From: Phycisphaerae bacterium
GTDB taxonomy: Bacteria > Planctomycetota > Phycisphaerae > Sedimentisphaerales > Anaerobacaceae
Assembly: GCA_028714855.1 (NCBI GenBank)
Contig: JAQTLP010000001.1
Location: forward strand, 250,572-314,571
Direction of reading: 5' to 3'
Length of the DNA: 64,000 bases
The notes below the pieces were generated by a model. The model searched no databases. It was not told where the DNA came from and was given only the letters and a program-made list of their open reading frames with translations. Positions 17,274-37,300 of this stretch are shown piece by piece; positions within the stretch are counted from its first letter, which is position 1; each line of letters starts with the position of its first letter. A program made the position numbers and the translations under genes.

Positions 17274-19418
17274 CTACCAGTTCGGCGTACAGTTCGGGTC
17301 TGTCGGGTCGTTGCACATCATCCACTGCACGGCAAAGTCGGTGAAGTCGAACAGGTCAACTATGCCGTCCGTCGGCTCAAAATCTGCGCCTTCACAGTTG
17401 CCCGGCTCGATGCAATTGGTATCCAGCCAGTGGTCGGCTATGATTTTGAGGTCCGCATAATTGACATGGCAATCGCTGCTTATGTCCGAGGTCAGGCCGT
17501 AGTCGGCGGCAAGGACGTTACCGCAGTTTGAAAGAATGAACTCGTTTGCCGGGGCCTTGACCACAAATCCGATGGCTGTCTGGTGGGTGTTGCTGGTAAG
17601 ATTTGTGAAGCTTGGTATTTCACTGGCCCCATTCGCTTGTTTATAACCCTCCACAGCACGGCTGCTGGTAAATGTGAAATCGAGAGCTTCGGTAAAAGCG
17701 TTATTTGTTGTATATGCGCCTGTACCGCTGGAGGTCGCAGCGTCGATAACCATATCTCCGGCGCTCGTGGCGAGCATCGGAGTTGTCAGCATATAGCCGG
17801 TTGTTATTTCATCGCCGGCTGTCGCTCCGGTAAGAGATGACTGATTTACATTTTGAAGGAATGCACTGCCGTATGCAGTATATGTAGGTGTGCCGCTCCA
17901 CGTGGGTACAAAGGTAGTATTGCTTGCGGCGATAATGTTCGCATCGTTAAGGATAAATGCCGCGGTGTATATTCGCGGATTGCTTGCGCTTGATGTGATT
18001 TTTTCAACGACTTTCGTCATCGCTCTTCCGCCATAAGTTACAGAGTTCAAACTTGTAGCGGAAGTGGAATTATGCCTGGCGTGCGCAATAAAGACCAGGG
18101 CGCGGTTGGTGCCTGACTCTTTCGTATGGCTTGTGCCTGATACCCATGAGCCGAGGATTCCGACGTCTGAAGCATATCTTTTGAGCACGAATTGCGCAGG
18201 CGTCTGGCCCGGTTCCAGCTCTATTGTGTATATTTCGGTGGGCTGGCCGGTTTTGGAAAGCGTTATCTGATAAGTGCCGTGAAATCCTCTGAAAGATACC
18301 TTGCCTGATGCGTCTGTGGTGTCGGAGTCATTTGTTGTCCATTCGTCCATCAGGTCCTCGTATCTTTCGCCCCTTACGGTGAGGTTCCAGCTAGCATCTA
18401 CAAGGTACGCGTCGGCGCGCCACATTGAACCCTCCAAGAAGCCCCACATTATTATGCCTTCAACGGAAGGATGGCTGAAGCATATACGGAAGTAGTTCTC
18501 GATATTGTCGGCCGATATATTTTCGTCGGTGTGCCTGGCGTCGAATTCAGTGGCCCATATAGGCAGGTCCAGCGCCGCCAGCGGCTGGAGGACATCACTG
18601 TAATATAATGCGGGGTCAAAGGTTAAATTTGCCCCTAAGTGGCCCTGAATGCCGAGAGCATCTATCGGCGCTCCCATCCCAATCAGGCTGGTGGCGCGGG
18701 CCGCATAAGGGGTGGAGTTATAGCCGCCGAATGAATTGCCGTTATATTCGTTCATAAACATTAAGCAGTTAGGGTCTCTCAGCTTGGCCCGCTCATACAT
18801 ATGGACCCTTCCCCCCTCGCCGAGGCGGTCGTAGAATGAGTCGGTAAGCATTTCGTTATCAACGTCCCAGTGACGGAATTTATTTTTGTATTTGTTTACC
18901 GCGCTGTCAATCCGCTCGTCAACTTCGCCAAGCAGGTCGCTCGGAGTCGGATATGTTGCGTATCCCAGAAGCTGTACCCAATCCTGCACCTTACTTGGCT
19001 GTTCCCAGAAAAGACAATGACCCCGGAAATTGAGTCCGTTGGAGTTAGCCCATTGGTAGATATTATCTGCGTATGTATATGTTTCGCTGTCCCGCGATGG
19101 CTCATTGTCAGGCCATTTTGTCTCATTTTCGCACACCGCCCACTCGAAATGGTCCAGAATGAAATCCTTATAGCTGGCGTCTGTCATTTTCGTGTTGGTG
19201 ATGCACGTGCCGAATGCGAAGCGATGTCCAATCTGCTCTATTTGCACGTTAATGCCGGGTACTGGTGCACCTAATGAGTCGACCACCGTAATCTCTGCGT
19301 TCCTCTTGCGTATCTGCTCAATTCTGGCATTTGCATCGGATTCCCAGTCGCCGTAACAGGGCGACCAGCCGAGGACTGCAATAAAAACTAAATACAGCCA
19401 ATAATGCTTAACAGCCAT
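17274..19418 (-). CDS. Secreted GH10 xylanase with dockerin-like tail
   Basis: 714 residues. Signal peptide of about 23 residues (LVFIAVLGWSPCYG). GH10 barrel at about 60-375 with acid/base Glu189 (HWDVDNEML) and nucleophile Glu291 (WATEFDAR). Then a short Ig-like segment (ASGKVSFRGFHGTYQITL), a beta-rich domain of unknown type (about 420-630), and a dockerin-like end with two calcium-loop-like stretches (DISSDCHVNYADLKIIADHW and ADFEPTDGIVDLFDFTDF) finishing in Asn-Trp. It hydrolyses xylan outside the cell. AAGAAGGAG stands before the ATG. It is the last of four co-oriented secreted hydrolases. Confidence 0.9.
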   Translation of the reverse strand: MAVKHYWLYLVFIAVLGWSPCYGDWESDANARIEQIRKRNAEITVVDSLGAPVPGINVQIEQIGHRFAFGTCITNTKMTDASYKDFILDHFEWAVCENETKWPDNEPSRDSETYTYADNIYQWANSNGLNFRGHCLFWEQPSKVQDWVQLLGYATYPTPSDLLGEVDERIDSAVNKYKNKFRHWDVDNEMLTDSFYDRLGEGGRVHMYERAKLRDPNCLMFMNEYNGNSFGGYNSTPYAARATSLIGMGAPIDALGIQGHLGANLTFDPALYYSDVLQPLAALDLPIWATEFDARHTDENISADNIENYFRICFSHPSVEGIIMWGFLEGSMWRADAYLVDASWNLTVRGERYEDLMDEWTTNDSDTTDASGKVSFRGFHGTYQITLSKTGQPTEIYTIELEPGQTPAQFVLKRYASDVGILGSWVSGTSHTKESGTNRALVFIAHARHNSTSATSLNSVTYGGRAMTKVVEKITSSASNPRIYTAAFILNDANIIAASNTTFVPTWSGTPTYTAYGSAFLQNVNQSSLTGATAGDEITTGYMLTTPMLATSAGDMVIDAATSSGTGAYTTNNAFTEALDFTFTSSRAVEGYKQANGASEIPSFTNLTSNTHQTAIGFVVKAPANEFILSNCGNVLAADYGLTSDISSDCHVNYADLKIIADHWLDTNCIEPGNCEGADFEPTDGIVDLFDFTDFAVQWMMCNDPTDPNCTPNW

Positions 19419-19441: not shown

Positions 19442-19461
19442 GTAAAACACTCAGGTTTTAC
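19442..19461 (-). other. Intercistronic hairpin before the GH10 gene
   Basis: GTAAAAC and GTTTTAC arms with a 6 nt loop; the arm nearer GH30 overlaps the end and stop codon of that gene. Equivalent hairpins occur before two of the GH30 genes (29635-29657 and, weaker, 22730-22749), each just ahead of the ribosome site. Confidence 0.45.
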
Positions 19462-22400
19462 CAATTTTCCATACATCCCGCATCTTCGGGGTCATTGCAC
19501 AGCAGCCACTGTTCGGCAAAACGGGCGAAATCAAAGAAATTAACATTACCGTCCGTCGGCGTAAAGTCAGCACCTTCGCAGTTTTCCTCCTCGGCGCAAT
19601 CGATACGCAGCCAATTATCGGACATAATTTTAAGGTCTTCATAATCAACATGGCAATCACCGCTGATGTCCGAGGTCAGGCCATAGCCTGCAGACAGAAC
19701 GTCAGCGCAGTTGGAGATGATGGTGCCAACGAAAGTGTTTATGCTGTTCCCAGCCAAAAAATTAATACGGCCTACAGCGCTCATGTTATCTACGTTATTA
19801 CTGCTTGAGGTTACATACTTTGTATAACTATCCACGCTGCCCCCAGAGAGCGAAAAAGTCACGGTCTGGGAAGAGGAGTTCTGATTTACAGCAACAATAA
19901 CCACAGTGTCGTCGCTTTTATACGCAGTTATATAAACACCAGAAGCGGGGTTGGCTGTCGCACTTACCCTGACGTATCCCGGCCGGACGAATTTAGCGAA
20001 ATGGCTCATACAGTAACCGCGCTTGGTGATATTTCCGCCATTTTCTTCCATTAAGCCGTAGTATCTTTTTATATACCACCATATGTATGCATTCATGTTA
20101 GCAGCCATACAATCATGAATCTCTTTGCCCACACCCAAAGCAAGGGGCCACTCGTCCGCATCATGTGCACTCTCAGTATAATGCTCGGTCATCCATATCT
20201 CTTTACCTTTGCTTCTTGCCAAAGGATAATCAGCGAGGCCTCCTCCATAAATATGGCCGGCGATGATATCTGTCTGCGCTTCGGCAGATGGGTCGTTTAG
20301 TATCGGGTCAGTAAAACTACGAGCGAAACGATACGACTCAGCAACCATCACCCGGGTTGGAATTACTGACGCATTATTTACAAGAAAATTTCTCATTTGT
20401 GTCGACGTCCAGTCACATGACTCGTAGCTTACAGTGACATCGGGCTCGTTTTGAAGGGAGACGGCATACAGAGGGGCATTATTATCTGACATATAATCAG
20501 CAAAATCACTTAAATAAGTAGCATAAGCACCATATGAACCTGTACTCAATTGACCTCCGACGAGATTATTGTTAGTTTTCATAGATGCCGGGGGTGACCA
20601 TGGTGATGCGAACACAATCGCCCCGTGGGTGTTTATAGCTCTATATGGAGCCCAAACTTGGCCGCTCCAGTCGGTATCGTTCGGTGGAACATCGATGCGC
20701 ATAATGGTCATGCCGATTTGTCCGGGACCGTTGCCAAAAGCCGTATCAACATCGGCATCATTTAATAAACCATGGCTCCATCTGGGAAAATGCATGCCGC
20801 CAAAGCCCCTGATAGTCTGGTGCGTAGTGTTTAAATCAATGTTTACGGTTTTTGGCTCAACCGTCACCACCTCTGTATCAAGTGTTATATCATCAAGATA
20901 CACCGTGCCTGTGTCTCCGGGGCGGCCATCACCGAAGCCGATAGTAATGCTCGCAATGTTGGCCAGGTTCACATCATTAAATTTCGTTAGCGCTATATTC
21001 CACCCATTCCATTGTTCATATTTGGCATAGTTGATATTGTCGTACACGGTCTTGGTCCCCGCGGGGTTGTCACCGTCTGTCAGTCTCACATACATCTGCT
21101 CACCAATCGGGTTGGTCATCTGCCCATGGAGGTTCAGTACCAATGCATTCGCGCCCAGGCCGAGCCAGTCGTGGTTGTTTATCCCCAAATCAGCGATATC
21201 CGCGTAGACCTCAGAATAATAGGGCGGCAGATTGTTGTCATACGAGTACTTCATTGAGTTGCCGTCGATAGAAATGGTTGTCTCAACGGAAATCTCAGCT
21301 GCGGTACTGTCAGTATCCCATACTGCTTCTAATTCTGAATCATCACCATAAGAATCAAAATCCTCCATTACGAAGTACGATGATGTCGTAAAGCTCCAGA
21401 CTTCGCCTTTAAAGATTGTGTAGTCGGGCGCGTCATTGACCTCATCGATACGCCAGTAGTAGGTTGTATTCAAGTTAAGAAGGCCGAGCGAGTCATAACT
21501 CGTAGTTGAATGGTCTTGACTGACCAGTACGCCCAGCGTATTACTCCTGTTAGCATCAGTTACTGCGGTTTCATTTGTTCCGAAGTATATATCGTGTGTT
21601 TCAGCAAGTCCGCCCTGTAACCAGCTAAGGACAGCATCTATCGGTGCGTCTTCCGCTCCGTTAAACGGCACCGGACGCTGGGCATATGGTGTCTCGGCAA
21701 ATGCTATCGATGCGTTCGGCTCCACCTGTATGGCGTTGACAAAGGCAAAAGGCTGGTTTTCTGGACTGCTTGGGCCCCTTTCGCTCGTCAGGATAATCCT
21801 GCCAAAATCATCTGATGTGGCTCTTCCGCTAAAGGCCCACTTCCAGAAATCATTAGAGGAGCTGGAAGAATAGTTATCAGGCAGAGGCTGATTTATCACT
21901 CCGCCGATGAAATCGGCATCAAAAAGATGTGTGCCGTTGGCATACCATTTAGCGACCCGATTGACATCTCCGGTGACTCGGGCGTCCCAAGCCCATATGG
22001 TTATGTTGCAGTCCCGGTTGGTCCCAAGTCCCCACAGCGTGATAGTAACTCCGCTTGGGCTTACCCCATAGACAAAATCACGATAAATCCTCTCGCCTGC
22101 CCGCTGGGAATAATAGCATGGGTCGCCAGGCATCACGGGAGTGCCGGCGTATCTCGACCATGAACCGCAAGGGTCGTCGCGTCTGACTGTGTTAATGCTG
22201 CCGCTTAGGTCAATTATAATACCATTTACCTCGCTGCCGGTGTTTGTAGTGCTAAACTGAACAAAACTGGTCTGTGTGTTTGGTTCGTTATTGTCTTGCG
22301 AGTAGTTAAGGTCCAGCCGCAGTACTGGTGGTGTAGTTACAGCATCGGTGGTTGCCGAGCGAGCAAGCGCCCAGCTGGTCTGATTCAAAGCGCTGTCACG

Positions 22401-22706
22401 TGCCCTGACCCTGAATGTGTACACAGTACTCTCAGTAAGGCCTGTAGCAATGTAATTGGTGTCTGTTTGCCATGTGCTGCTGGCTGAGGGGATATTGGAG
22501 CACTCAAACAAGTACTGTATGGGAACACTACCGGCTTGATCCAAAGCAGTTACTGCAGCCATCTGAATTGAGTTTGGCCCAAGTGTTATCGGGACAATCC
22601 GCCACTTCGCCGGGCTCGGCCTTGGAGCAGTGGTATCGCCGTAACAGGGTGATAAAGCAAGGGCTGAAATAAAAAGTAAATACAAGGAAAAATGCTTAGC
22701 AGTCAT
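19458..22706 (-). CDS. Secreted multidomain GH30_8-type glucuronoxylanase
   Basis: 1082 residues. Signal peptide (ending SPCYG); a fibronectin-III-like module (about 25-125); a beta module opening VLRLDLN (128-340); a second FnIII-like module (350-440); a jelly-roll CBM-like module (447-612); a GH30 catalytic domain (about 620-990); and a dockerin-like tail. Acid/base Glu754 (SLQNEPD) and nucleophile Glu841 (WMTEHYT) are 87 residues apart. The segment IWWYIKRYYG...TKRGYCMSHFAKFV resembles GH30_8 XynC, whose Arg in this loop recognises methylglucuronic acid. It probably cuts glucuronoxylan next to uronic-acid branches. AAGGAGG lies 10 bp before the ATG. Its N-terminal half is near-identical to its two neighbours. 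Confidence 0.88.
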   Translation of the reverse strand: MTAKHFSLYLLFISALALSPCYGDTTAPRPSPAKWRIVPITLGPNSIQMAAVTALDQAGSVPIQYLFECSNIPSASSTWQTDTNYIATGLTESTVYTFRVRARDSALNQTSWALARSATTDAVTTPPVLRLDLNYSQDNNEPNTQTSFVQFSTTNTGSEVNGIIIDLSGSINTVRRDDPCGSWSRYAGTPVMPGDPCYYSQRAGERIYRDFVYGVSPSGVTITLWGLGTNRDCNITIWAWDARVTGDVNRVAKWYANGTHLFDADFIGGVINQPLPDNYSSSSSNDFWKWAFSGRATSDDFGRIILTSERGPSSPENQPFAFVNAIQVEPNASIAFAETPYAQRPVPFNGAEDAPIDAVLSWLQGGLAETHDIYFGTNETAVTDANRSNTLGVLVSQDHSTTSYDSLGLLNLNTTYYWRIDEVNDAPDYTIFKGEVWSFTTSSYFVMEDFDSYGDDSELEAVWDTDSTAAEISVETTISIDGNSMKYSYDNNLPPYYSEVYADIADLGINNHDWLGLGANALVLNLHGQMTNPIGEQMYVRLTDGDNPAGTKTVYDNINYAKYEQWNGWNIALTKFNDVNLANIASITIGFGDGRPGDTGTVYLDDITLDTEVVTVEPKTVNIDLNTTHQTIRGFGGMHFPRWSHGLLNDADVDTAFGNGPGQIGMTIMRIDVPPNDTDWSGQVWAPYRAINTHGAIVFASPWSPPASMKTNNNLVGGQLSTGSYGAYATYLSDFADYMSDNNAPLYAVSLQNEPDVTVSYESCDWTSTQMRNFLVNNASVIPTRVMVAESYRFARSFTDPILNDPSAEAQTDIIAGHIYGGGLADYPLARSKGKEIWMTEHYTESAHDADEWPLALGVGKEIHDCMAANMNAYIWWYIKRYYGLMEENGGNITKRGYCMSHFAKFVRPGYVRVSATANPASGVYITAYKSDDTVVIVAVNQNSSSQTVTFSLSGGSVDSYTKYVTSSSNNVDNMSAVGRINFLAGNSINTFVGTIISNCADVLSAGYGLTSDISGDCHVDYEDLKIMSDNWLRIDCAEEENCEGADFTPTDGNVNFFDFARFAEQWLLCNDPEDAGCMENW

Positions 22707-22745
22707 TTTTTGTATTCCTCCTTATCTTAGTAAACTATTTAAGCT

Positions 22746-25700
22746 TTACCAATTTTCCATACAACCCGTGTCCTCCGGGTCATTACACAGCAGCCACTGC
22801 TCAGCAAAACGGGCGAAATCGAAGAGGTCAACATTGCCGTCCGTCGGCGTAAAGTCAGCACCTTCGCAGTTTTCCTCCTCGGCGCAATCGGTATGCAGCC
22901 AGTTGTCGGCTATGATTTTGAGGTCTTCGTAGTTAACGTAGCAATCACCGCTGATGTCCGAGGTCAGGCCATAGCCTGCGTCCAGGATTGCGTCGCAATC
23001 AGGCGAGGTTGTGCCCGTCAGGTGGATGGTGGTGATTGAATACGCCGGCAGCGTCAACCCGGGACTGTACGGTCCGAGATATAACCAATGTTCCGTCTCG
23101 CTGCTTCGGTAAATCTCCGAACTGCTCGGTATAAATCCCTTCAGCGTAAACATCAAGTCTGCACCGGCTGCGGATGTGTTGAGCATCACTATCGTCAATT
23201 GGTCGTTCTCAGGGCTCTTAAAGGCGGTTATTCGCAGGTCGTCCGAACCTGTCCCCTCAAGAAATACATCAACCATATACCAGCCGGGGTCGGTAAAGTA
23301 TGCGTAATGCTTGAAGAACCAGTAGAGGTCACGAACTATATACGTAGAAGGGTTGGTAATATTAATCATACCGCCTTCGCCCCAGCCTCTGAACAAGGAC
23401 CAGTGATAATACGAAGTTACACCTTCATATACCAGGCAATTGTAAATGTGCTGTGCGAGCAATACGGCATCGCCGAATGATGGAACCGCGTCGGCGGAAT
23501 ATTCCGTTTGGAACAACGGCTTATAGCCATAGAGGGCGTTATAATTTAGCATTCCCTGAATCATGCCGTCAGGGCTGTAGTAGCTGCCGTCGCTGTAAAG
23601 ATGGTGTGAGAATCCATAGACGTGGTCTATCTGACCTCTATTGACTAACGCATTGATATATGCCCGCGAACTGCCGAAGCCCATTGCTTCCGGGGCGAGC
23701 ATCTTCGGCATAGGCGAAACGCTTCCATTTAGCCTGTTATAGACCGCCTCAAACGCCTGGTCGTAGCCGGCGTAGTTTGCATCTTCTACCGGGTTGAATC
23801 TACAGACCTGATCCTGCTGCCCCCAATCCGGCTCGTTTTGAATACTTATGTAATCGGGGTAAATACCGACGCTGTTCCAGCCGTATAAACCTGTCAAACT
23901 GTTGAGCCACCACGTCGCATAGTCGGCATACACATAATTACTTGGACCGCCTGCGAGGGTTGAGTTCAGTGTTCCTAAATCTCCGCTGCTTTTAAGATAA
24001 GCCGCGGGCGACCAGGGAACCAGTAGAAGCTTTAAATTCGGGTTACGCGTCGCCTGCCTTGCTGCTGCGACGATTTGCCCTGTGGCGTTTATTTCGTAGT
24101 AATTGATTTCATATGTGTTTTTTATCCTTAAAACGTCGAGACCGAGGTCTCTGAACAGAAGGTCGTAAACTGCTTCCCTGCTCGAGTAGTTTGCAAGAGT
24201 TCCTGATTCATAGCAAGCGGAACCGCCGAAACCTTCGAGCTGCTGATAAACGATGTTAACATTCGCCTCACCTCTAATCTCAGGCAATTCCTCGGCTTCT
24301 ATACTATCCAGCATGATGTCTTCGAAGTACACGGTATCTGCATCTCCTGGGTTGCCGTCGCCGAAGCCGATGGTAATCTTCGCAACATTGGCAAGGTTCG
24401 CATCGGCGAATTCTGTCAGCGAAATGCTCCACTCGTTCCATTGTTTCAGCCAGACAGTGTTCATATTGCTGTATATTACAGTCGCGGTATGCGGAGGGCT
24501 GTCACCGTCGGTCAGCTTCACGTACAGTTGTTCACTAAAAGGATTATTTGGTTCAACGTGGAATCGCACTACCAGTGCTTTAGCACCGGTGCCGAGCCAG
24601 TCAGGGTCGTCCATTCCCAAATCAGCGATGTCTGCGCAGACCTCGGAGTAGTATGGCGGGAGGTTATTTTTATAAAGATACCTCATTGAGTTACCATTGC
24701 GAACGATAGCAGTCTCGACAGAAACTTCCGCGCTGGTGCCGCTGTTTTGCCATACATTCCGCAGGGCAGAGTTATCCTCATACGAGTCAAAATCTTCCAC
24801 AACAAAATCCGGTAATGTTCTAAAGCTCCAGGTTTCGCTTTTGAAGATTGTGTAGTCAGGCGCAGCATTGACTTCGTCAACCCGCCAATAGTAGGTTGTG
24901 TTTAATTTGAGAAGACCCGCAGCGCCATAAGGGTCATAAGTGTTGGATTCCTGGCCTTGACTAACCAGTACGCCCAGCGTATTACTCCTGTTAGCGTCAG
25001 TTACTGCGGTTTCATTTGTTCCGAAGTATATATCGTGTGTTTCAGCAAGTCCGCCCTGTAACCAGCTAAGGACAGCATCTATCGGTGCGTCTTCCGCTCC
25101 GTTAAACGGCACCGGACGCTGGGCATATGGTGTCTCGGCAAATGCTATCGATGCGTTCGGCTCCACCTGTATGGCGTTGACAAAGGCAAAAGGCTGGTTT
25201 TCTGGACTGCTTGGGCCCCTTTCGCTCGTCAGGATAATTCTGCCAAAATCATCCGATGTGGCTCTTGCGCTAAAGGCCCACTTCCAGAAATCATTAGAGG
25301 AGCTGGAAGAATAGTTATCAGGCAGAGGCTGATTTATCACTCCGCCGATGAAATCGGCATCAAAAAGATGTGTGCCGTTGGCATACCATTGAGCGACTCG
25401 ATTGACATCTGTGACTTGACTGTCCCATGACCATATGGTTATGTTGCAGTCCCGGTTGGTGCCAAGTCCCCATAGCGTGATTGTAACTCCGCTCGGATTA
25501 ACACCGTAGACAAAATCGCGATAAATCCTCTCGCCTGCCCGCGGGGAATAATAGCATGGGTCGCCCGGGAGCAAGGGTGTGCCGGCATATCTCGCCCATC
25601 CTCCGCAAGGGTCGTCGCGTCTGGCTGAGTTAATGGTGCCGCTGAGGTCAATTATAATACCATTTACTTCACTGCCGCTGGTTGCAATGCTAAGCGGCAT

Positions 25701-26147
25701 AAAGCCGGCCTGAGTATTGGGTTCATCATTGTTTATTGTGTGGTTAAGGTCCAGCCGCAGTACTGGTGGTGTAGTTACAGCATCGGTGGTTGCCGAGCGA
25801 GCAAGCGCCCAGCTGGTCATATTCAAAGCGCTGTCACGTGCCCTGACCCTGAATGTGTACACAGTACTCTCAGTAAGGCCTGTAGCAATGTAATTGGTGT
25901 CTGTTTGCCATGTGCTGCTGGCTGAGGGGATATTGGAGCACTCAAACAAGTACTGTATGGGAACACTACCGGCTTGATCCAAAGCAGTTACTGCAGCCAT
26001 CTGAATTGAGTTTGGCCCAAGTGTTATCGGGACAATCCGCCACTTTGCCGGGACCGGCCTTGGAGCAGTGGTATCTGCGCCGTAACAGGGTGATAAAACA
26101 AGGGCTGAAATCAAAAGCAAATACAGGGGAAAATATTTAACAGACAT
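22746..26147 (-). CDS. Secreted multidomain GH30 glycoside hydrolase
   Basis: About 1133 residues, with the same module order as its neighbours: signal peptide, FnIII-like, VLRLDLN beta module, FnIII-like, CBM-like jelly roll, GH30, dockerin-like. The catalytic part (about 625-1055) carries acid/base Glu774 and nucleophile Glu884 (counted from the upstream ATG) in SIQNEPD and FQTEYS. It lacks the WWYIKR loop of the downstream paralogue, so its GH30 subfamily and specificity probably differ; a (glucurono)xylanase is the likely type. AAGGAGG is 9 bp from the second ATG (26147) but only 3 bp from an upstream ATG at 26153, so the second is preferred. Secreted. Confidence 0.86.
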   Translation of the reverse strand: MSVKYFPLYLLLISALVLSPCYGADTTAPRPVPAKWRIVPITLGPNSIQMAAVTALDQAGSVPIQYLFECSNIPSASSTWQTDTNYIATGLTESTVYTFRVRARDSALNMTSWALARSATTDAVTTPPVLRLDLNHTINNDEPNTQAGFMPLSIATSGSEVNGIIIDLSGTINSARRDDPCGGWARYAGTPLLPGDPCYYSPRAGERIYRDFVYGVNPSGVTITLWGLGTNRDCNITIWSWDSQVTDVNRVAQWYANGTHLFDADFIGGVINQPLPDNYSSSSSNDFWKWAFSARATSDDFGRIILTSERGPSSPENQPFAFVNAIQVEPNASIAFAETPYAQRPVPFNGAEDAPIDAVLSWLQGGLAETHDIYFGTNETAVTDANRSNTLGVLVSQGQESNTYDPYGAAGLLKLNTTYYWRVDEVNAAPDYTIFKSETWSFRTLPDFVVEDFDSYEDNSALRNVWQNSGTSAEVSVETAIVRNGNSMRYLYKNNLPPYYSEVCADIADLGMDDPDWLGTGAKALVVRFHVEPNNPFSEQLYVKLTDGDSPPHTATVIYSNMNTVWLKQWNEWSISLTEFADANLANVAKITIGFGDGNPGDADTVYFEDIMLDSIEAEELPEIRGEANVNIVYQQLEGFGGSACYESGTLANYSSREAVYDLLFRDLGLDVLRIKNTYEINYYEINATGQIVAAARQATRNPNLKLLLVPWSPAAYLKSSGDLGTLNSTLAGGPSNYVYADYATWWLNSLTGLYGWNSVGIYPDYISIQNEPDWGQQDQVCRFNPVEDANYAGYDQAFEAVYNRLNGSVSPMPKMLAPEAMGFGSSRAYINALVNRGQIDHVYGFSHHLYSDGSYYSPDGMIQGMLNYNALYGYKPLFQTEYSADAVPSFGDAVLLAQHIYNCLVYEGVTSYYHWSLFRGWGEGGMINITNPSTYIVRDLYWFFKHYAYFTDPGWYMVDVFLEGTGSDDLRITAFKSPENDQLTIVMLNTSAAGADLMFTLKGFIPSSSEIYRSSETEHWLYLGPYSPGLTLPAYSITTIHLTGTTSPDCDAILDAGYGLTSDISGDCYVNYEDLKIIADNWLHTDCAEEENCEGADFTPTDGNVDLFDFARFAEQWLLCNDPEDTGCMENW

Positions 26148-26181
26148 CTTCATGTTCCTCCTTAAGAGCGTATTTGGAATT

Positions 26182-29100
26182 TTACCAGTTTTCTATACAG
26201 GCCGTGTCAGCAGGATCGTTACACAGCAGCCACTGCTCGGCGAAACGTGCTAAGTCAAAAAAGTTAACATAGCCGTCCGTTGGTGCAAAATCAGCACCTT
26301 CACAGTTTTCCGGCTCGGTGCAGTCGTCCAGCCAGTTATCGGTTATTATTTCAAGGTCTTCGTAATTAACGTAGCAATCACCGCTGATGTCTGAGGTCAG
26401 GCCATGGCCTGCAGCGAGGACACTATCACAGTTTGAGCAAGAGGCATTGCTTATAGTGGTGATTGACCGCCTCGGTAGAATCAGCACACTGTTTTCATCG
26501 AAAGGACCGATATATACGGTATTCTCTGTTTCGCTGGTGCGGTATATTCCGGAATTATTTAGCGGGAAACCATTCAAATTAAGCGTTAAGCCCATATTGT
26601 CATAGGAGAGGTTTATCAGCACAATAGATAGCTGCTGGCCATCTGGGCTTTTGTAGGCTGAAATACGTAAGTCGCCCCGGTCGCCCAAATCAGTCCAGGT
26701 TCTGACGCGATGCCATCCTGGGTCGGTAAATGCCGCATATTGCTTGAAGGCATAATAAATAGGATTAGGGGCGAAGGTAGCTCCTCCCGTGGGGCTTCCC
26801 ACGTAATTTATGAGGCCTTTAGGCGGTGTCCAGAATAGCTCCCAATAAACATACGCCGATGCGTTCTCGAAAACCAGGGTATTGTGCATCAGCTGTGCCA
26901 GGTTCATTGCCTCAGGGAAAGTAGTTACATCTCCGTCGTCGTCACCCTTCGAGAACTCTGTCATCATCCGTGGCTTATTATTGTAATAATCGCGGTAATA
27001 TTGCATAGAGGTGATGTAGCCGTCGGGGTTGTAGTAGCTGCCGCCGCCGTTGTAAAGGTGGTGAGCATAACCGTAAACATGACTCAGATTTGCAAGACTA
27101 TCGATATATTGGTAGAGTCTATAAAAACCGGCGGTTTCGGGAGCAAGCATCTTCGGCATATTCGGTCCCATTCGCGAATACAGCTCTTCGTAAACTTTTT
27201 CGAAGGCCTGACGATAACCGGCAAAGTCCGCGTTTTCTGAAGGTTCGAATCTGCAGGATGCCCAGCTTGCTACATAGTCAAGTTCGTTTTGTATATTTAT
27301 ATAGTCGGCAACTACGCCTTGATTGCCCCATTCTTCCAGACTGTCCGCCCACCATTCTGCAAACCTTTTGTATATATAATAGTGGGGGGCGCTGTTATTG
27401 GGGTCAGTAGCGTCTTTTATAAGGGTGCCGCCGTTTTCCAATATGCCGTTACTTTTGAAAGAGGTCGGCGGTGACCATGAGGAAATCATAACCTTTAACG
27501 ATGGATTACGTGCCTTCCCGCCTGCGATGATTTGGGCCGAACGGTTTAGGTAACCACTGTCGTAACCGTAACTATTCCGTACTCTGTAAATGTCAAGACC
27601 AAGCTCATCAAACACAGCATCATAGAGCTTCTCTCTCTCGGTCTGGGACAGAGTATCCAGTACCTCGTATTCATGCCAGCTGGCGGCGGCTCCGAAACCT
27701 TCGAGTTCCTGGTAAACGGTGTTAGCATATACCTCGCCAGCAGCACTCTGGTATCTATCGAATCTACTATCCAGCGTGATATCTTCGAAGTACACGGTCC
27801 CTGCATCTCCGGGGCTGCCGTTGCCGAAGCCGATGGTAATCTTCGCAACATTTGACAGATTTACGCCGGTAAATTCCGTCAACTCAATGCTCCAGTTGTT
27901 CCATTGTTTCAGCCTGACATCGTTCATATTGCTGTATGTTACGGTTGCGGTATGCGGAGGATTGTCACCGTCGGTCAGCTTAACATACATCTGCTCATCT
28001 ATGGGGTTGGATGGTTTGCCGTAGAAATACAACACTAATGTGTTAGCGCCGAGGCCAAGCCAGTTGGGGTCATTTATTCCCAAATCAGCAACATCCGTGC
28101 TAACTTCGGAATAGTATGGCGGGAGATTATTATTATAAAGATACCTCATCGAGTTGCCGCTGCGGGCGATAGAAGTCTTGACAGAAACTTCCGCGCCGGT
28201 GCCGCTGTTTTGCCATATGTTCCGCAGGGCTGCGTGGTCCTCATACGAATCAAAATCCTCCACAACGGCAGTCGGCGATGTCCTAAAACTCCAGGTTTCG
28301 CCTTTAAAGATTGTGTTGTCTGGTGCGGAATTGACCTCATCAATACGCCAGTAGTAGGTTGTGTTTAATTGGAAAAAACCCGCAGCGCCATAAGGATCAT
28401 AAGTATTAGGTTCCTGGTCTTGACTAACCAGTACGCCCAGCGGATTACTTCTGTTAGCGTTGGTTACTGCTGTTTCATTTGTTCCGAAATATACATCGTG
28501 TGTTTCAGCAAGTCCGCCCTTTAACCAGTTAAGGGCCGCATCTATTGGTGCGTCTTCTGCTTCGTTAAACGGCACCGGACGCTGGGCATATTTTGTAGGG
28601 ATGAACGGTATCAGGGCGTTCGGCTCTACCTGTAAGGCGTTGACAAAAGCAAAGGGCTGGTCTTCCGGACTGCTTGGGCCCCTTTCGCTCGTCAGGATAA
28701 TTCTGCCTAAATCATCCGATGTGGCTCTTCCGCTAAAGGCCCACTTCCAGAAATCATTAGAGGAGCTGGAAGAATAGTTGTCCTGCAGAGGCTGATTTGC
28801 CGCTCCGCCGATGAAATCGGCATCAAAAAGATGTGTGCCGTTGGCATACCATTCAGCGACCCGATTGGCATCTCCGGTGCTTTGGCTGTCCCATGACCAT
28901 ATGGTTATGTTGCAGTCCCGGTTGATGCCAAGTCCCCATAGCGTGATTGTAACTCCGCTCGGATTAACACCGTAGACAAAATCGCGATATATTTTTTCGC
29001 CTGCCCGCGGGGAATAATAGCACGGGTCGCCAGGCATCACGGGAGTGCCGGCGTATCTCGACCATCCGCCGCAGGGGTCATCACGTCTGACTGTGTTAAT

Positions 29101-29613
29101 GCTGCCGCTTAGGTCAATTATAATACCATTTACCTCGCTGCCGGTGTTTGTAGTGCTAAACTGAACAAAACTGGTCTGTGTGTTTGGTTCGTTATTGTCT
29201 TGGGAGTAGTTAAGGTCCAGCCGCAGTACTGGTGGTGTAGTTACAGCGTCGGTGGTTGCGGAGCGAGCAAGCGCCCAGCTGGTCATATTCAAAGCGCTAT
29301 CACGTGCCCTAACCCTGAATGTATGCACAGTACTCGGGGTAAGGCCTGTAGCAATGTAATTGGTGTCTGTTTGCCATGTGCTGCTGGCTGCGGGGTTATC
29401 GGAGCACTCAAACAAGTACTGTATGGGAACACTACCGGCTTGATCCAGAGCAGTTATTGCAGCCATCTGAATTGAATTTGGCCCAAGTGTTATCGGGACA
29501 ATCCGCCACTTCGCCGGGACCGGCCTTGGAGCAGTGGTATCTGCGCCGTAACAGGGTGATAAAACAAGGGCTGAAATCAAAAGCAAATACAGGGGAAAAT
29601 ATCTAACAGACAT
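26182..29613 (-). CDS. Secreted multidomain GH30 glycoside hydrolase
   Basis: About 1143 residues, first gene of the four-hydrolase operon and built like the next two. The catalytic domain (about 630-1065) has acid/base Glu779 and nucleophile Glu888 (counted from the upstream ATG) in NIQNELD and MMTEFS; the usual NEP is NEL here. It is closer to the 22746-26147 paralogue than to the XynC-like one. The dockerin-like tail starts near DISGDCYVNYEDLEII and ends in Asn-Trp. The ATG at 29613 is 9 bp after AAGGAGG; the ATG two codons earlier is too close. A strong promoter lies 157 bp upstream. Predicted secreted xylanase or glucuronoxylanase. Confidence 0.86.
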   Translation of the reverse strand: MSVRYFPLYLLLISALVLSPCYGADTTAPRPVPAKWRIVPITLGPNSIQMAAITALDQAGSVPIQYLFECSDNPAASSTWQTDTNYIATGLTPSTVHTFRVRARDSALNMTSWALARSATTDAVTTPPVLRLDLNYSQDNNEPNTQTSFVQFSTTNTGSEVNGIIIDLSGSINTVRRDDPCGGWSRYAGTPVMPGDPCYYSPRAGEKIYRDFVYGVNPSGVTITLWGLGINRDCNITIWSWDSQSTGDANRVAEWYANGTHLFDADFIGGAANQPLQDNYSSSSSNDFWKWAFSGRATSDDLGRIILTSERGPSSPEDQPFAFVNALQVEPNALIPFIPTKYAQRPVPFNEAEDAPIDAALNWLKGGLAETHDVYFGTNETAVTNANRSNPLGVLVSQDQEPNTYDPYGAAGFFQLNTTYYWRIDEVNSAPDNTIFKGETWSFRTSPTAVVEDFDSYEDHAALRNIWQNSGTGAEVSVKTSIARSGNSMRYLYNNNLPPYYSEVSTDVADLGINDPNWLGLGANTLVLYFYGKPSNPIDEQMYVKLTDGDNPPHTATVTYSNMNDVRLKQWNNWSIELTEFTGVNLSNVAKITIGFGNGSPGDAGTVYFEDITLDSRFDRYQSAAGEVYANTVYQELEGFGAAASWHEYEVLDTLSQTEREKLYDAVFDELGLDIYRVRNSYGYDSGYLNRSAQIIAGGKARNPSLKVMISSWSPPTSFKSNGILENGGTLIKDATDPNNSAPHYYIYKRFAEWWADSLEEWGNQGVVADYINIQNELDYVASWASCRFEPSENADFAGYRQAFEKVYEELYSRMGPNMPKMLAPETAGFYRLYQYIDSLANLSHVYGYAHHLYNGGGSYYNPDGYITSMQYYRDYYNNKPRMMTEFSKGDDDGDVTTFPEAMNLAQLMHNTLVFENASAYVYWELFWTPPKGLINYVGSPTGGATFAPNPIYYAFKQYAAFTDPGWHRVRTWTDLGDRGDLRISAYKSPDGQQLSIVLINLSYDNMGLTLNLNGFPLNNSGIYRTSETENTVYIGPFDENSVLILPRRSITTISNASCSNCDSVLAAGHGLTSDISGDCYVNYEDLEIITDNWLDDCTEPENCEGADFAPTDGYVNFFDLARFAEQWLLCNDPADTACIENW

Positions 29614-29634
29614 CTTCATACGCCTCCTTATCAG

Positions 29635-29657
29635 GGTAAAACTCTGAGGGTTTTACC
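29635..29657 (-). promoter_or_regulatory. Leader hairpin of the GH30 operon
   Basis: Perfect 8 bp stem (GGTAAAAC / GTTTTACC) with a 7 nt loop, in the 5' leader just before the ribosome site of the first GH30 gene. No U-run follows. Similar hairpins precede other genes of the operon, so it could tune translation or mRNA stability. Confidence 0.45.
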
Positions 29658-29769
29658 GGTTCTAATCATCCTCGCCCTCTTACTCTGCCAGGAGCAAACC
29701 GCCCAAGCCCAATGAATCGTACCTTGAAACAATGGGTATATTTTAAGCGCAAAATTCCAATTTCTTCCA

Positions 29770-29798
29770 ATTATACCACATTTGCTTCGGATTTTCAA
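29770..29798 (-). promoter_or_regulatory. Promoter of the GH30/GH10 operon
   Basis: TTGAAA, exactly 17 bp, then perfect TATAAT on the minus strand; predicted start near 29763 and leader of about 150 nt. The rest of the 29614-29889 gap holds no gene. Confidence 0.75.
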
Positions 29799-29889
29799 CC
29801 AATTTTCGCCCTTTTTGGGGATTAAAATAGGCATTTTGGCTCTCCAAAGGCGGATTTTCGTGATAAAGGTTGGAAAACACCGCCAAAAG

Positions 29890-30603
29890 TTATTTTGCTG
29901 CCTTTATCGCATCCGCGAGGCTTAGCGTGCCTTCGTATAAAGCCCTGCCGATTATTACAGCTTTAACCCCCGTTTCGGATAGTTTTCTGATATCGCTTAT
30001 CGTGCTTACCCCGCCCGAAGCTATAACGGCAACCCCAACCGCCGCAGCCACCGCTTCTGTTCGTTCAAAATTAGGACCTTCCATCATACCGTCTTTGGCA
30101 ATGTCGGTATATATTATCGCCGCTATTGGTAATTTCGCCGCCTTGGCCGCAAACTCCAATAACGGTTCGGAAGCATTTTTTGTCCAGCCATCAGTGGCTA
30201 CCTTATCGTCCCGCGCATCGAGGCCGAGCACAATTTTACCACTGAATTTTTCAGCCATTTCACTAAACCACTCGAAATCGCTTACGGCTTTAGTGCCTGT
30301 TATTACCCGCCCTACTCCCATATCGAGCAGTTGTTTTATGGATACCTCATCGCGCAATCCGCCGCCGACCTCGATTTTCAGTTTCCCCAGAGCTGCTATG
30401 GCTGATATTGTATCGGTATTGACGGGCTTGCCTGCTTTGGCTCCGTCCAAATCGACGATATGCAGCCACTCTGCTCCGGCCGAGATGAACTCCTCGGCCT
30501 GCTTGACGGGGTCATCGTTGTAGGTTATCTGTCGGCGGTACTGACCTTGGATAAGTCTGACGCATTTGCCGTCTCGTAAATCAATAGCCGGTATGATATA
30601 CAT
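29890..30603 (-). CDS. hisA: Phosphoribosyl-formimino-AICAR-P isomerase HisA
   Basis: 237 residues, the normal length. MYIIPAIDLRDGKCVRL at the start holds the catalytic Asp8, and IVDLDGAKAG (about 49-58), EVGGGLR (78-84), ITGTKAV and VIASGGVS mark the duplicated half-barrel phosphate sites of HisA. It isomerises ProFAR to PRFAR in histidine synthesis, in the cytoplasm. No other his gene is in the window, so the pathway genes are dispersed. It has its own promoter. Confidence 0.95.
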   Translation of the reverse strand: MYIIPAIDLRDGKCVRLIQGQYRRQITYNDDPVKQAEEFISAGAEWLHIVDLDGAKAGKPVNTDTISAIAALGKLKIEVGGGLRDEVSIKQLLDMGVGRVITGTKAVSDFEWFSEMAEKFSGKIVLGLDARDDKVATDGWTKNASEPLLEFAAKAAKLPIAAIIYTDIAKDGMMEGPNFERTEAVAAAVGVAVIASGGVSTISDIRKLSETGVKAVIIGRALYEGTLSLADAIKAAK

Positions 30604-32762: not shown

Positions 32763-34334
32763 ATGGATAGATACTCAAAATTTTTTTTACCGGGTTTTAT
32801 GCTTGGCATATTTTTATTGGGAGGGTGCGATCCAAAACCTGTCGCTCCGGTTAAAGAAATAGCGAGAGCTAAAGCAGATGAACCTGCGGCCCATGCCAAG
32901 GTTGTTTTCAGGTCAACACTTTCGGGTAGCTGGTATTCTGCCGACGCTAAAACACTGAGTGAACAAATCGAGGGGATTTTCGAAAAAGCCGATGTTGAGC
33001 CGATAAATAATGTTATCGCCCTTATCCTTCCGCACGCCGGCTACCAGTACTCCGGCCGGACCGCCGCTTTTGGATTGAAGTCTGCCGGCAGGCAATATAA
33101 AAGGGTGATTGTAATTGGCCCCAGTCATCGTGTCCCTATGGAAGATGTGCTCAGTGTCCCCATGGCGACGCATTACGAAACGCCGCTCGGACAGGTGCCG
33201 CTTGATGTGGAATTTATAAATAAGCTTTTGGAGCATCCGATATTTCAGAACATACCGCAGGCGGACGAATATGAACACAGCACCCAGATAGAGGTGCCGC
33301 TGCTGCAATATGTGCAGAAAGATTTTAAGCTTGTGCTGATTGTGGCCGGCGACTGCTCGGTGGAAACAATTGCACAGGCCGGCGCTATCTTGAAGAGTTT
33401 GGTTGATGATGACACGCTCGTTATTGCAAGCTCCGATTTTACCCATTATGGTCCGAACTATGGCTACGTCCCATTCAGGGAAAAGATACCTGAACAGCTA
33501 AAAAAGCTCGATATGGGTGCGTTCGAGTATATCAAGGCCCTGGATTACAAAGGCTTTTTGGAATATCGTAGTAAAACCGGTGCAACAATATGCGGGTTTG
33601 TGCCGATATCGATATTGCTTTCGATGTTAGACGAAACCGTTGAGACTAAATTGATTAAATATACGACTTCCGGCGAACTGACGGGAGATTTCTCCAACTC
33701 GGTCAGCTACTTTTCGATTGCTTTTTCGGGTAAGTGGGGACACTCTTCCCAAATTAAACCGGAGGCGAATGTCAGTGAATTGAGCAAAGAAGACAAAAAG
33801 CAGCTTTTGACCCTGGCCCGCAAATCGTTGGTTTATTTTTTGCGTAACCGAAAGGTCCCCGATGTATCGGAGCTGAATGTCACGGCCAGTGACGCAATGA
33901 AACTTCGGCGGGCGGCGTTTGTAACGCTTGAAGAAAATTCTCAGCTTAGAGGCTGTATAGGCGATATCTTTCCGCGACAGCCTTTGTATAAATCGGTCAT
34001 CTCCAACGCCATTAACGCCGGCGTCAATGACAGACGTTTCCGCCCGGTAACGGAAGCCGAATGTAACGATATTAAAATCGAGATATCGGCGCTGACAGCG
34101 CCTAAACCAATTGCTTCATCGGATGAAATCAGAATTGGTATAGACGGCGTGGTGCTGAATAAAAATGGTTACGGGGCCGTGTTCCTGCCTCAAGTTGCGC
34201 CCGAACAGGGCTGGAATATAAGCCAGATGCTCACACAGTTGTCTCTCAAAGCGGGGCTGCCCTCAGACGCTTGGAAGGAAGGCGCGAGCTTTCTTGTTTT
34301 TCAGGCGGATGTTTTTGGCGAGGATGAGAAATGA
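32763..34334 (+). CDS. AmrB (Memo)-AmrA (AMMECR1) fusion lipoprotein
   Basis: 523 residues. A lipobox (LLGGC, Cys22) places it on the outer face of a membrane. Residues about 45-325 are the Memo domain, with LPHAGYQYSG (89-98), GPSHRVP (119-125), SSDFTHYG and ICGF (Cys277), matching the His/His/Cys metal pocket of Memo proteins. Residues about 340-520 are AMMECR1 with its LRGCIGD motif (395-401). The two are separate proteins in many genomes; fusion and export are unusual. GGAG 8 bp ahead supports the ATG at 32763 over a GTG three codons earlier. Its stop overlaps the next gene by 4 bp. Confidence 0.87.
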   Translation: MDRYSKFFLPGFMLGIFLLGGCDPKPVAPVKEIARAKADEPAAHAKVVFRSTLSGSWYSADAKTLSEQIEGIFEKADVEPINNVIALILPHAGYQYSGRTAAFGLKSAGRQYKRVIVIGPSHRVPMEDVLSVPMATHYETPLGQVPLDVEFINKLLEHPIFQNIPQADEYEHSTQIEVPLLQYVQKDFKLVLIVAGDCSVETIAQAGAILKSLVDDDTLVIASSDFTHYGPNYGYVPFREKIPEQLKKLDMGAFEYIKALDYKGFLEYRSKTGATICGFVPISILLSMLDETVETKLIKYTTSGELTGDFSNSVSYFSIAFSGKWGHSSQIKPEANVSELSKEDKKQLLTLARKSLVYFLRNRKVPDVSELNVTASDAMKLRRAAFVTLEENSQLRGCIGDIFPRQPLYKSVISNAINAGVNDRRFRPVTEAECNDIKIEISALTAPKPIASSDEIRIGIDGVVLNKNGYGAVFLPQVAPEQGWNISQMLTQLSLKAGLPSDAWKEGASFLVFQADVFGEDEK

Positions 34335-37300
34335 AATCTGCCCGAGGCCTGCTTGTTTTCAGTTACGGGTTGTTTACTATCGCCGCCCAGTCTTTGCTTT
34401 TTCGAGAATTCACAACCGCCTTCGAAGGCAGTGACATAAGCGTCGGTGTATTCTTCAGTTCGTGGTTTTTATGGGTCGGCATGGGGGCGCTGCTCGTATA
34501 TAAAAACACGACCTTTGCCGGCAAGCTCCTTAAAAATATTGAATTCCTGTTTTTATGTTACCTGCCTGCCTTTATCGCGGAGCTTGTTTTGATTATTCAT
34601 GCGCGCCAGCTTGCGGGCATCGCGCCTTATGTGCTGATACCCATAAAGGCAATCGTGCTTTTATCAATCGCTGTTAATGCGCCGGTCAGCATCATTACGG
34701 GAATGCTGTTTCCAATTGCCTGCCGCTGGGTTCGAAGTGAGGATGAGCTCGCCGTTTCACGAGTGTATATTCTCGAAGCGGCGGGAAGTTTTCTCGGCGG
34801 GCTGGGGACAACTTTGCTCTTGGCTTTCGGTGTAAGCTCGGCAAGGATTTTCTTCATACTTGCTTTTATTATTTCTCTTTCATTCTTTTTAGTACGTTTT
34901 GCGAAGTCGAAGAACATGACGTGGGCTTTGGTGCCGGCGTGTATCTTCGTTTGCCTATTCGCCGGTGTTGACAATAAACTGTCACGACAGCTCCAGATTA
35001 TAAAGTGGGAAAAGCTGCTTCCGAAAGATACTCTGCAAGGTTCCTTTCAAACAGCCCAGGCGGAGTATTTATATGGTGTCTATCATGATCAGTGGGTGGC
35101 TGTCCGCGAAGGCAGCACTTGCGAGGTCTTGCCTGACAAAACTAACGCCGGCCGAATAGCGGCCATCGGCCTCTGTCAAAATCCTGATGCTAAAAGGGTT
35201 TTGGTCGTCGGTTCCGGGCTGGGGTTGTGTTACCAGTTTCTGAATTTGAGACAAATAGAAAAAGTGACTTGGGCAAATAGTGACAGCGAATATGTTCAGA
35301 AGGTCAGCGATTTTATACCACTAAAATTTAGAATTGATGACCAGCGGTTAAATCTGCTAAGCGGTGACATTCGCTCGTCGCTTGCCGGAGAGAAACAATA
35401 TTACGACTTGGTGATTCTTAATCTGCCGGATGCGACCAGCTCAGTTCTAAACCGGTATTACACTCTCGAATTTTATCGTCAGATTAAAAATGCGATGCGC
35501 CCAGATGGTGTGCTGGCAGTCCGAATAGCGGGCGGGGAAAACATTATGGGTACCGAGCTGATTAACCTCGGCGCCTCGACGAAATTGACGCTTCAGAAGG
35601 TTTTCTCACAGCTTGTCTTGGCGCCCGGCGATGATACATGGTTTATCGCATCTGACTCCGGAAAACTCACCGGCGACCCCGGCAGCTTACGGGACCGCTT
35701 TGCGGCCATAAAGGGCGGCCCAGATATTTTCCCGCCGCGGGCTCTGCTTTCTGTTTATCTGCCGGATAGGGCCTCAATTGCGATGGAGAATTATTCGGGT
35801 GCGGATTTGCCTGATAGACTGCTTATTAATCGCGATTCCAGACCGCTGACGTATTTATACAGTTTGTTGCTCGCGGCCAAACAATCAGGAGCGCCGGGAA
35901 CAAAATTTATTAAATACCTTGTGCTGGCAGGCTCCCTCGTATTTGTTGTCCCCATCCTGATTTTTATAGTTTTGCGTCTTATTTACATTTTGAAAACAGC
36001 TCAGCGAGGTAGTCCCTCGAGTTTCGATAGTTCGTTTTTGGTTTTCTCAGCCGGCTGGGTCGGCATCGGTGTCGTGATTGTTCTGATGTATTTATATCAA
36101 ACTTACTTCGGTTCGCTTTACCTTTATATCGGTGTTATTTCTTCCTTGTTTATGGCAGGCTTGAGCGTGGGGGCTGTTCTGGTTAGGTATTTACTTTCGG
36201 GCAAATGGAGGTTAAAACCGCAAATCCTGTTATTCGCATCAATATTTGTTTATACGGCAGTTTTGACCGCAATCATCTTTTGGCCGGGGCAGCAATGGAC
36301 GCATCCGTACTTTGCCGTTGCGTTTGTTCTTTGCGGCCTGTGCGCAGGCTGTTTCTTCCCGCTTGCTGCAAGACAGCTTGCTGATTCCGCTTTTGAAACG
36401 GGCGAGATCGGCAGCAAATTGGAAACTGCCGACCACATTGGTGCTTCAGTAGGAGGATTACTGACAAGCCTTGCTCTTGTTCCTGTGCTTGGGACGAAGG
36501 TCACGTTATTTATATTTATTCTGCTCGTTCTGGCTAATATTCCCACTGTCGTCCTGAGACTATATGCGCCGGAAAAAGTTCGCTATTCGGCTGCAGCCGT
36601 TTTTAAGCTGCGCAGGCTCGGCTACATCCTGTTTGGTATTGGACTGTCTGTTACCATCTGCTCGAATCTGCTTAATAAAACAAGTGGTCAGCTAAGGTCA
36701 TCTCTGCCGCAGGATGTTGCCCATGCGCTGGTCGGCCGGGCACACCTTGAACTGGTCTCGGCGACCATCGGCGATAATGCCCGCAAGATTAATTATTTTA
36801 GAGTTTATGATGCTGATGAAAAACTAAACGGCTATATTTTCAGCTCCGCAGATTTGGCGCCGGAGGTTACAGGTTTCGGCGGAAAGATTAATCTGGCCAT
36901 TTACGTGGATACCGCTGGCAGGTTAATTAAGTTCGATATAACATTGTCCAATGAAACTCCTTCGTATCTTGAGCTTCTTACCAATTGGCGGCAGTTTCTC
37001 ACAGGCCGTCAGCTTTTCCAGCCGGGACCTTTCACCGGTATTAATGCGACAACCGGTGCAACCTTTAGCTCTAAGGCGATTCTCTCTGCGTTGGAAAAAT
37101 CCGGTGTCAGGTTCGCCGGCGAAATCCTCGGCAATACCCCGCCCGCGTTGCCGCTTGCGCAACAGGCGAGATGGCCCGGCGCCGCAGGATTATATTTGAT
37201 AACCGCTTTCATCCTCGCCATTATTGTAATCTACCGTGGCGGGTTCTGGGGTCGCCTTACCGTCCTTTGCTTCAATCTTATCGTCGGCGGCATTATCCTG

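Follow-up and report, generated by a model that had tools for sequence, protein, structure and literature searches.

Probable concerted evolution confined to the N-terminal module of tandem GH30-type enzymes and other proteins in a Phycisphaerae bacterium

The analyzed window is a 64,000-nt stretch of the genome of a Phycisphaerae bacterium (assembly GCA_028714855.1, contig JAQTLP010000001.1, positions 250,572 to 314,571 of the forward strand). It contains three consecutive genes, designated A, B and C, that combine a shared N-terminal compound module with different catalytic domains of the glycoside hydrolase family GH30 or its relatives. We compared these genes with further copies of the module in the same genome (G000) and in a second genome of the same genus (G002); module copies are labelled A-F in G000 and H-J in G002. 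The comparison indicates that the first ~400 residues of the module very probably evolve in concert within G000, while the remaining parts of the proteins retain histories of their own. The three genes are arranged as follows, with coordinates given within the window.

19458..22706, minus strand: gene A, an open reading frame (ORF) of 1082 aa with a signal peptide, the compound module, a GH30 subfamily-8-like xylanase domain (~19728-20852) and a dockerin-like tail.
22746..26153, minus strand: gene B, an ORF of 1135 aa with the same layout as C and a GH30-like catalytic domain (~23019-24269); its orthologue in G002 is H.
26182..29619, minus strand: gene C, an ORF of 1145 aa with a signal peptide, the compound module, a GH30-like catalytic domain (~26455-27735) and a dockerin-like tail.

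The gaps between these genes are 28 and 39 nt. A first-pass annotation had placed three tandem genes here, and the ORFs bear it out, except that its end at 29613 falls 6 nt short of the actual end at 29619.

The module consists of a fn3-like domain, a malectin/CBM35-like beta-sandwich, an Ig-like domain and, in most copies, a second beta-rich domain. Three further full copies were identified in G000, in a CE15-type glucuronoyl esterase (D, contig C4), a LamG protein (E, contig C2) and a multidomain protein (F, contig C7). Contig C14 ends inside another copy (L021:5150-5287); the initial 97 nt of this copy, from the start region, agree with F at 99% and with E at 93%. The assembly thus breaks on this repeat, and the copy number is at least seven. 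Three long copies were found in G002, heading a GH30 protein (H), a CE4 polysaccharide deacetylase (I) and a LamG protein (J). The presence of the same module on GH30, CE15-like and LamG proteins in G000 and on a CE4 protein in G002 points to domain shuffling. An apparent absence of the module from the G002 CE15 gene and second CE4 gene was dropped as evidence, since the contigs end before or inside the expected place. In gene F (L018:3741-7694), about 1.8 kb is set into the second beta-rich domain, as if cargo had been inserted in the module; E aligns to F over nt 104-1531 and then, at 88.7%, over nt 3351-3706.

Sequence similarity between the tandem genes changes along the module. Amino acid identity over residues 1-400 is 90.7% for A/B, 88.9% for A/C and 87.0% for B/C, and over residues 401-616 it is 63.2%, 63.0% and 75.8%, respectively. 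The earlier description of about 560 residues shared at very high identity is thus generous, with 82-84% over residues 1-560. The homogenised parts, delimited by windows of synonymous divergence (dS), trees, approximately unbiased (AU) tests and identity, are located as follows.

28420..29619, minus strand: homogenised part of C, residues 1-400.
24954..26153, minus strand: homogenised part of B, residues 1-400, also tracked against H and the paralogues.
21516..22706, minus strand: homogenised part of A, residues 1-397.

Within these parts, the dS between copies varies between 0 and values above 0.5. For instance, the window that begins at A residue 311 has a dS of 0.00 for A/B and 0.37 for A/C, while the one beginning at residue 132 has 0.04 for A/C and 0.53 for A/B. 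Both windows coincide with exact tracts, which are listed here together with a third; all limits are rounded to codons.

22383..22610, minus strand: 225 nt shared exactly by A and B, covering A residues 33-108.
22179..22301, minus strand: 119 nt shared exactly by A and C, covering A residues 136-176, where the A/B dS is 0.53.
21648..21800, minus strand: 150 nt shared exactly by A and B, covering A residues 303-353, with no silent A/B difference and an A/C dS of 0.37.

Divergence between the copies is mosaic and not uniform. The partner switches and motifs quoted in the first-pass annotation are also real among the nine module proteins checked: NYSQDNNEPNTQTSFVQFST is confined to A and C, NHTINNDEPNTQAGFMPLSI to B, and NSMRYLY to B and C, while DPYGAAG occurs in B, C and also in copy E. 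The near-identity of A and B around residues 305-398 was likewise recovered, with 93 of 94 residues agreeing over A 305-398.

Several statistics reject a single tree for the six G000 copies. The pairwise homoplasy index (PHI), calculated on 242 informative sites, was 0.369 against a permuted mean of 0.444 (sd 0.007), with p=0.0005, which is the floor of 2000 permutations; third codon positions alone gave the same outcome. The rate-normalised variance of pairwise distance exceeded that of all 300 single-tree simulations, both at all sites and at third positions, and the longest identical run reached 236 nt compared with a maximum of 153 in these simulations. GENECONV-like runs at all sites were significant for A/B and A/C, and the A/B run stays significant at third positions (global P=0.002). 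Segment trees rejected A+B over A residues 130-180 (p=0.0018) and A+C over residues 253-397 (p=6e-5), both segments having been picked after the data were inspected. A+B was not rejected over residues 195-245 (p=0.41), with p=0.48 over residues 25-60, and both of these segments are uninformative. By PHI and the AU tests on segments, the module holds conflicting phylogenies along its length.

Comparison with G002 allows paralogues to be set against orthologues. B and H are sisters by catalytic domain (support 99/100), and E and J are orthologous by synteny, both lying beside lpxB. Since both pairs carry the module at the same place, the module predates the split of the two species. Nevertheless, the tree of B residues 27-400 unites all six G000 copies in a single clade (100/100), and the AU test over this region rejects both B+H (p=1.7e-147) and E+J (p=7.4e-9). 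For residues 457-612, from which F and I were excluded because the segment is missing or split, E and J pair with support 100/100 and monophyly of the G000 copies is rejected (p=1.35e-4). The same transition is visible along E itself. Five windows of 90 nt, spanning 360 nt of leader plus codons 1-30, agree with J at 78-87%. Over residues 31-360 the best G000 paralogue reaches 80-100% and J 49-77%, and beyond the module only J gives a good match.

The between-genome yardsticks are a dS of 0.47 and a nonsynonymous divergence (dN) of 0.06 for lpxB, and 0.75 and 0.055 for a LeuA-like gene. The B/H catalytic part has a dS of 0.82 and a dN of 0.21 at 71% identity, and the B/H module a dS of 0.58 and a dN of 0.29 at 60% identity. 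The mutual dS of A, B and C over residues 27-400, in comparison, is 0.13-0.22, against 0.47-0.82 between the genomes. With a dN above that of the catalytic part, the module evolves quickly between species, while the three tandem copies differ little at silent sites. Over residues 27-400, paralogous modules are closer to each other than to their orthologues, their homogenisation extends beyond the protein level to synonymous sites, and, as seen from E, the homogenised tract is flanked by sequence with an orthologous history.

For one copy, the direction of copying can also be read from the sequence. The segment concerned and the intact gene at its edge are as follows.

27782..30041, minus strand: segment of 2260 nt, made up of the hisA tail, leader and module, that recurs at the CE15 gene D of contig C4 (blastn, 85%).
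29890..30603, minus strand: intact hisA (Pfam His_biosynth, E 9e-81), the 3' end of which is copied to locus D.

The C/D alignment begins 422 nt ahead of the start codon and reaches about residue 612. Locus D holds a 50-codon hisA remnant (C4:102402-102551) with 88% amino acid identity over 50 positions, stop included, and the matching intact hisA adjoins C. This remnant shows that D received its front end as a copy of the C locus, fused to a BACON-CE15 part. Window by window across residues 1-400, silent divergence between C and D now varies between 0.00 and 0.72, which is more uneven than one copying event predicts.

Taken together, these data very probably reflect concerted evolution limited to the module, with segmental duplication and recurrent ectopic gene conversion confined to it. 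The compound module heads at least six secreted proteins, namely the three tandem GH30 enzymes, the CE15-type glucuronoyl esterase, the LamG protein and the multidomain protein. It spread at least partly by segmental duplication, as the hisA remnant shows for the 2.26 kb from the hisA 3' end through the leader and module of C, copied to the CE15 locus. Trees, silent sites and tracts indicate that approximately the first 400 residues were then overwritten repeatedly between loci by ectopic recombination, presumably RecA-type gene conversion, while the adjoining second beta-rich domain and the catalytic domains followed separate histories. The first-pass annotation had suggested gene conversion or domain shuffling as the source of the patchwork; this is supported by the conflicting segment trees, the silent-site tracts, the clustering within the genome and the occurrence of the module on varied enzymes.

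Some results weigh against this reading. At third positions, the GENECONV-like runs have a global P of 0.076 for A/C and 0.70 for B/C. The count of nearest-partner switches, considered as a proof of exchange, was rejected: 58 switches in the six copies lie within the single-tree expectation (simulated mean 49.5, sd 6.1, maximum 70, P=0.083), so a patchwork judged by eye from such switches is weak evidence alone. The orthologue test comprises only two pairs, B/H and E/J, with a fragmented G002 assembly; for the catalytic domain of A, no orthologue was found in G002 (best match 30%). Over residues 457-612, B+H was neither recovered nor rejected (p=0.087). The J module is divergent from all others (dN 0.43-0.53), and the replacement in the E/J pair may therefore lie on the J side, although one module would have been exchanged either way.

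Among other explanations, recent duplications alone would require that, once the lineage had separated from G002, a single source was copied once to each locus and the copies then diverged without exchange. The hisA remnant at D attests at least one such copying, and clustering within the genome, taken by itself, would fit. However, the module was already in place in the B/H and E/J ancestors, the divergence between copies is mosaic rather than uniform, as exemplified by C and D, and PHI rejects one tree; we consider this scenario very unlikely. An assembly or binning artefact, in which reads of near-identical repeats are misjoined or collapsed into false mosaics, appears just as improbable. 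The assemblers evidently struggle here, with contig C14 breaking off inside a copy and contigs of G002 stopping within or close to the module, and the mosaics are read from assembled contigs. On the other hand, A, B and C lie within one contig of more than 314 kb with intact open frames, and mosaic relations recur between copies on different contigs. Misjoining would swap flanks at identical tracts rather than produce such tracts beside diverged ones, and would not be expected to give differing orthology for residues 27-400 and 457-612. Contig ends in the module thus leave room for a local assembly error, but hardly for a pattern across contigs and two species.

Two further possibilities have almost no probability in our view. 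Strong purifying selection alone, keeping the copies alike with no exchange, is compatible with some constraint on the module, as dN is below dS in every whole-module pair; it would not account for tracts identical at silent sites (A/B dS 0.00) or for a B/H module that diverges more than the catalytic domain in both dN and identity. As to programmed diversification, whether through a diversity-generating retroelement or through silent cassettes, the point in its favour is one reverse transcriptase gene that G000 carries on contig C14 (367 aa, L106:1210-2313). This enzyme, however, scores best on PADLOC reverse transcriptase models of defence systems (best model RT_VI, E 1.2e-65). The variation is dominated by transitions and not aimed at adenine, with 170 of 306 biallelic sites being CT or AG (CT 86, AG 84, AC 45, CG 34, AT 32, GT 25), and no start-less whole-module cassette occurs among the 40 matches listed in the genome. 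Neither a template repeat carrying changes at adenine only nor partial silent copies were observed.

Beyond the mechanism, selection may favour uniform modules. It is conceivable, though we regard it as unlikely, that selection acts on the uniformity of the module, as a part shared genome-wide, because all carriers must fit one changing partner, with gene conversion as the updating mechanism; such a partner could be a surface anchor, matrix glycan or docking protein. This proposal stems from the observation that the module changes faster between species than the B/H catalytic domain and yet is uniform across unrelated cargo within each genome.

The catalytic domains diverge as strongly as first annotated, with 27% identity for A/B and 45% for B/C. 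Gene A has a Pfam GH30 match, and its catalytic domain aligns nearly full length to the structures 1nof (E 2.2e-105) and 3gtn (E 5e-97), both GH30 subfamily 8 glucuronoxylanases; its score against the NCBIfam XynC model is 388.6 bits, below the cut-off of 650. By these alignments A is predicted to be a GH30 subfamily-8 type xylanase. B and C, in contrast, are distant from the subfamily 8 enzymes and closest to 9ywn in the PDB (E 2.7e-71 and 7e-71, respectively). B stays below the Pfam GH30 cut-off (15.9 bits vs 23) and C matches no Pfam family at E up to 0.01, so both are called GH30-like on the basis of their relation to 9ywn. The B domain is most similar to its G002 counterpart H (69-71% identity), which, together with the low identities between the tandem genes, makes the catalytic domains appear as old paralogues rather than products of recent diversification. 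The nearest G000 paralogue of the A enzyme (63%, contig C6) is without the module front end, so the A enzyme may have become fused to the module within this lineage.

A contrasting case is provided by tandem GH30-like genes of another architecture (L016:4504-8133 and L068:1-4605), which both G000 and G002 retain. In the tree, every unit groups with the corresponding unit of the other genome (support 98-100), so this tandem pair is not homogenised.

The central part of the module was also analyzed by structure prediction.

28594..29229, minus strand: malectin/CBM35-like beta-sandwich of C, residues 131-342 (AlphaFold2, predicted local distance difference test (pLDDT) score 82.4), identified by fold matches and belonging to no Pfam family.

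The predicted structure matches the C-terminal domain of a Bacteroides glucuronidase (Z 13.0, root-mean-square deviation 3.0, 142 aligned residues) and also resembles malectin-type receptor ectodomains (malectin, Z 10.2) and CBM35 (Z ~9). These relatives share roughly 8-15% identity with it, and Foldseek TM-scores to the query are at most 0.55 for most of them. The domain is accordingly modelled as a malectin/CBM35-like beta-sandwich by structural similarity. It matches no Pfam model of a carbohydrate-binding module (CBM) family, and among 28 relatives there was one weak match to CBM26 (E 0.058). Its profile retrieved only short fn3-like fragments from PDB sequences. From the fold and the enzymes it accompanies, the module may bind xylan or other glycans. 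A predicted structure of the full module (616 aa, 9 sequences) was dropped at a pLDDT of 46. The domain was found in 2 of 392 genomes of the phylum, 12 of 89 of the family and 20 of 161 of the order, these samples overlapping, and the copies are mostly distant. A search of plasmids and phages found nothing, and C residues 1-340 alone as a query against genome contigs found no relative. Repeats 38-54% like the fn3-like domain of the module are numerous in two very long ORFs of G000, of ~3600 aa (L019, G000:C2:52804-59358) and ~3839 aa (L022, G000:C4:38370-48206).

The tandem genes belong to a xylan-use neighbourhood that includes, on the same strand, genes for GH116, GH3, a PfkB kinase, a GH10-GH43 fusion, a major facilitator superfamily sugar transporter and GH10. 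The last of these lies downstream of A.

17274..19418, minus strand: GH10 gene (Pfam GH10) that lacks the module but ends in a comparable dockerin-like tail, with 66% similarity across query residues 1061-1145.

Elsewhere in the window (34331-38155), an ORF of 1274 aa joins spermine-synthase-like, FMN-binding and 4Fe-4S domains.

The closest precedents are the glucan degradation locus of Caldicellulosiruptor and the mtrA genes of methanogens, and the present case represents a known mechanism in an unusual setting. The Caldicellulosiruptor locus (CelA to CelF) also encodes multimodular fibre-degrading enzymes with near-identical binding modules and differing catalytic domains; two CBM3b are more than 99% alike, and recombination after duplication was proposed (PMC7142884, PMC6892212). 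There, the enzymes lie in one locus, the module belongs to the known family CBM3 and a GH48 catalytic domain is identical as well, whereas here the copies are dispersed, the module belongs to no Pfam family and exchange was tested with orthologues from a second species. In mtrA-1 and mtrA-2, conversion is reported to be limited to one domain while another part differs by domain shuffling, and the paralogues are closer to each other than to orthologues (PMC4632066). That system differs in comprising two copies of an intracellular archaeal methyltransferase over very long times, compared with six or more secreted proteins with unrelated catalytic parts. The test logic, homogenisation of paralogues at silent sites relative to orthologues, is shared with a survey of concerted evolution in prokaryotes, which deals with whole genes, mostly members of complexes, and names part-of-gene cases as future work (PMC6053082). 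Searches of the open PMC literature, outside which most subscription papers lie, listed no account of concerted evolution limited to a module among enzymes of planctomycetes.

The border near residue 400 separates a repeatedly overwritten stretch from parts with their own histories in at least six secreted proteins, and the hisA remnant is a scar that gives the copying direction for one copy. Trees of such modules, as well as short-read assemblies across them, can mislead. The family also offers a natural system for asking whether fibre-degrading enzymes have their binding or anchoring parts updated jointly.

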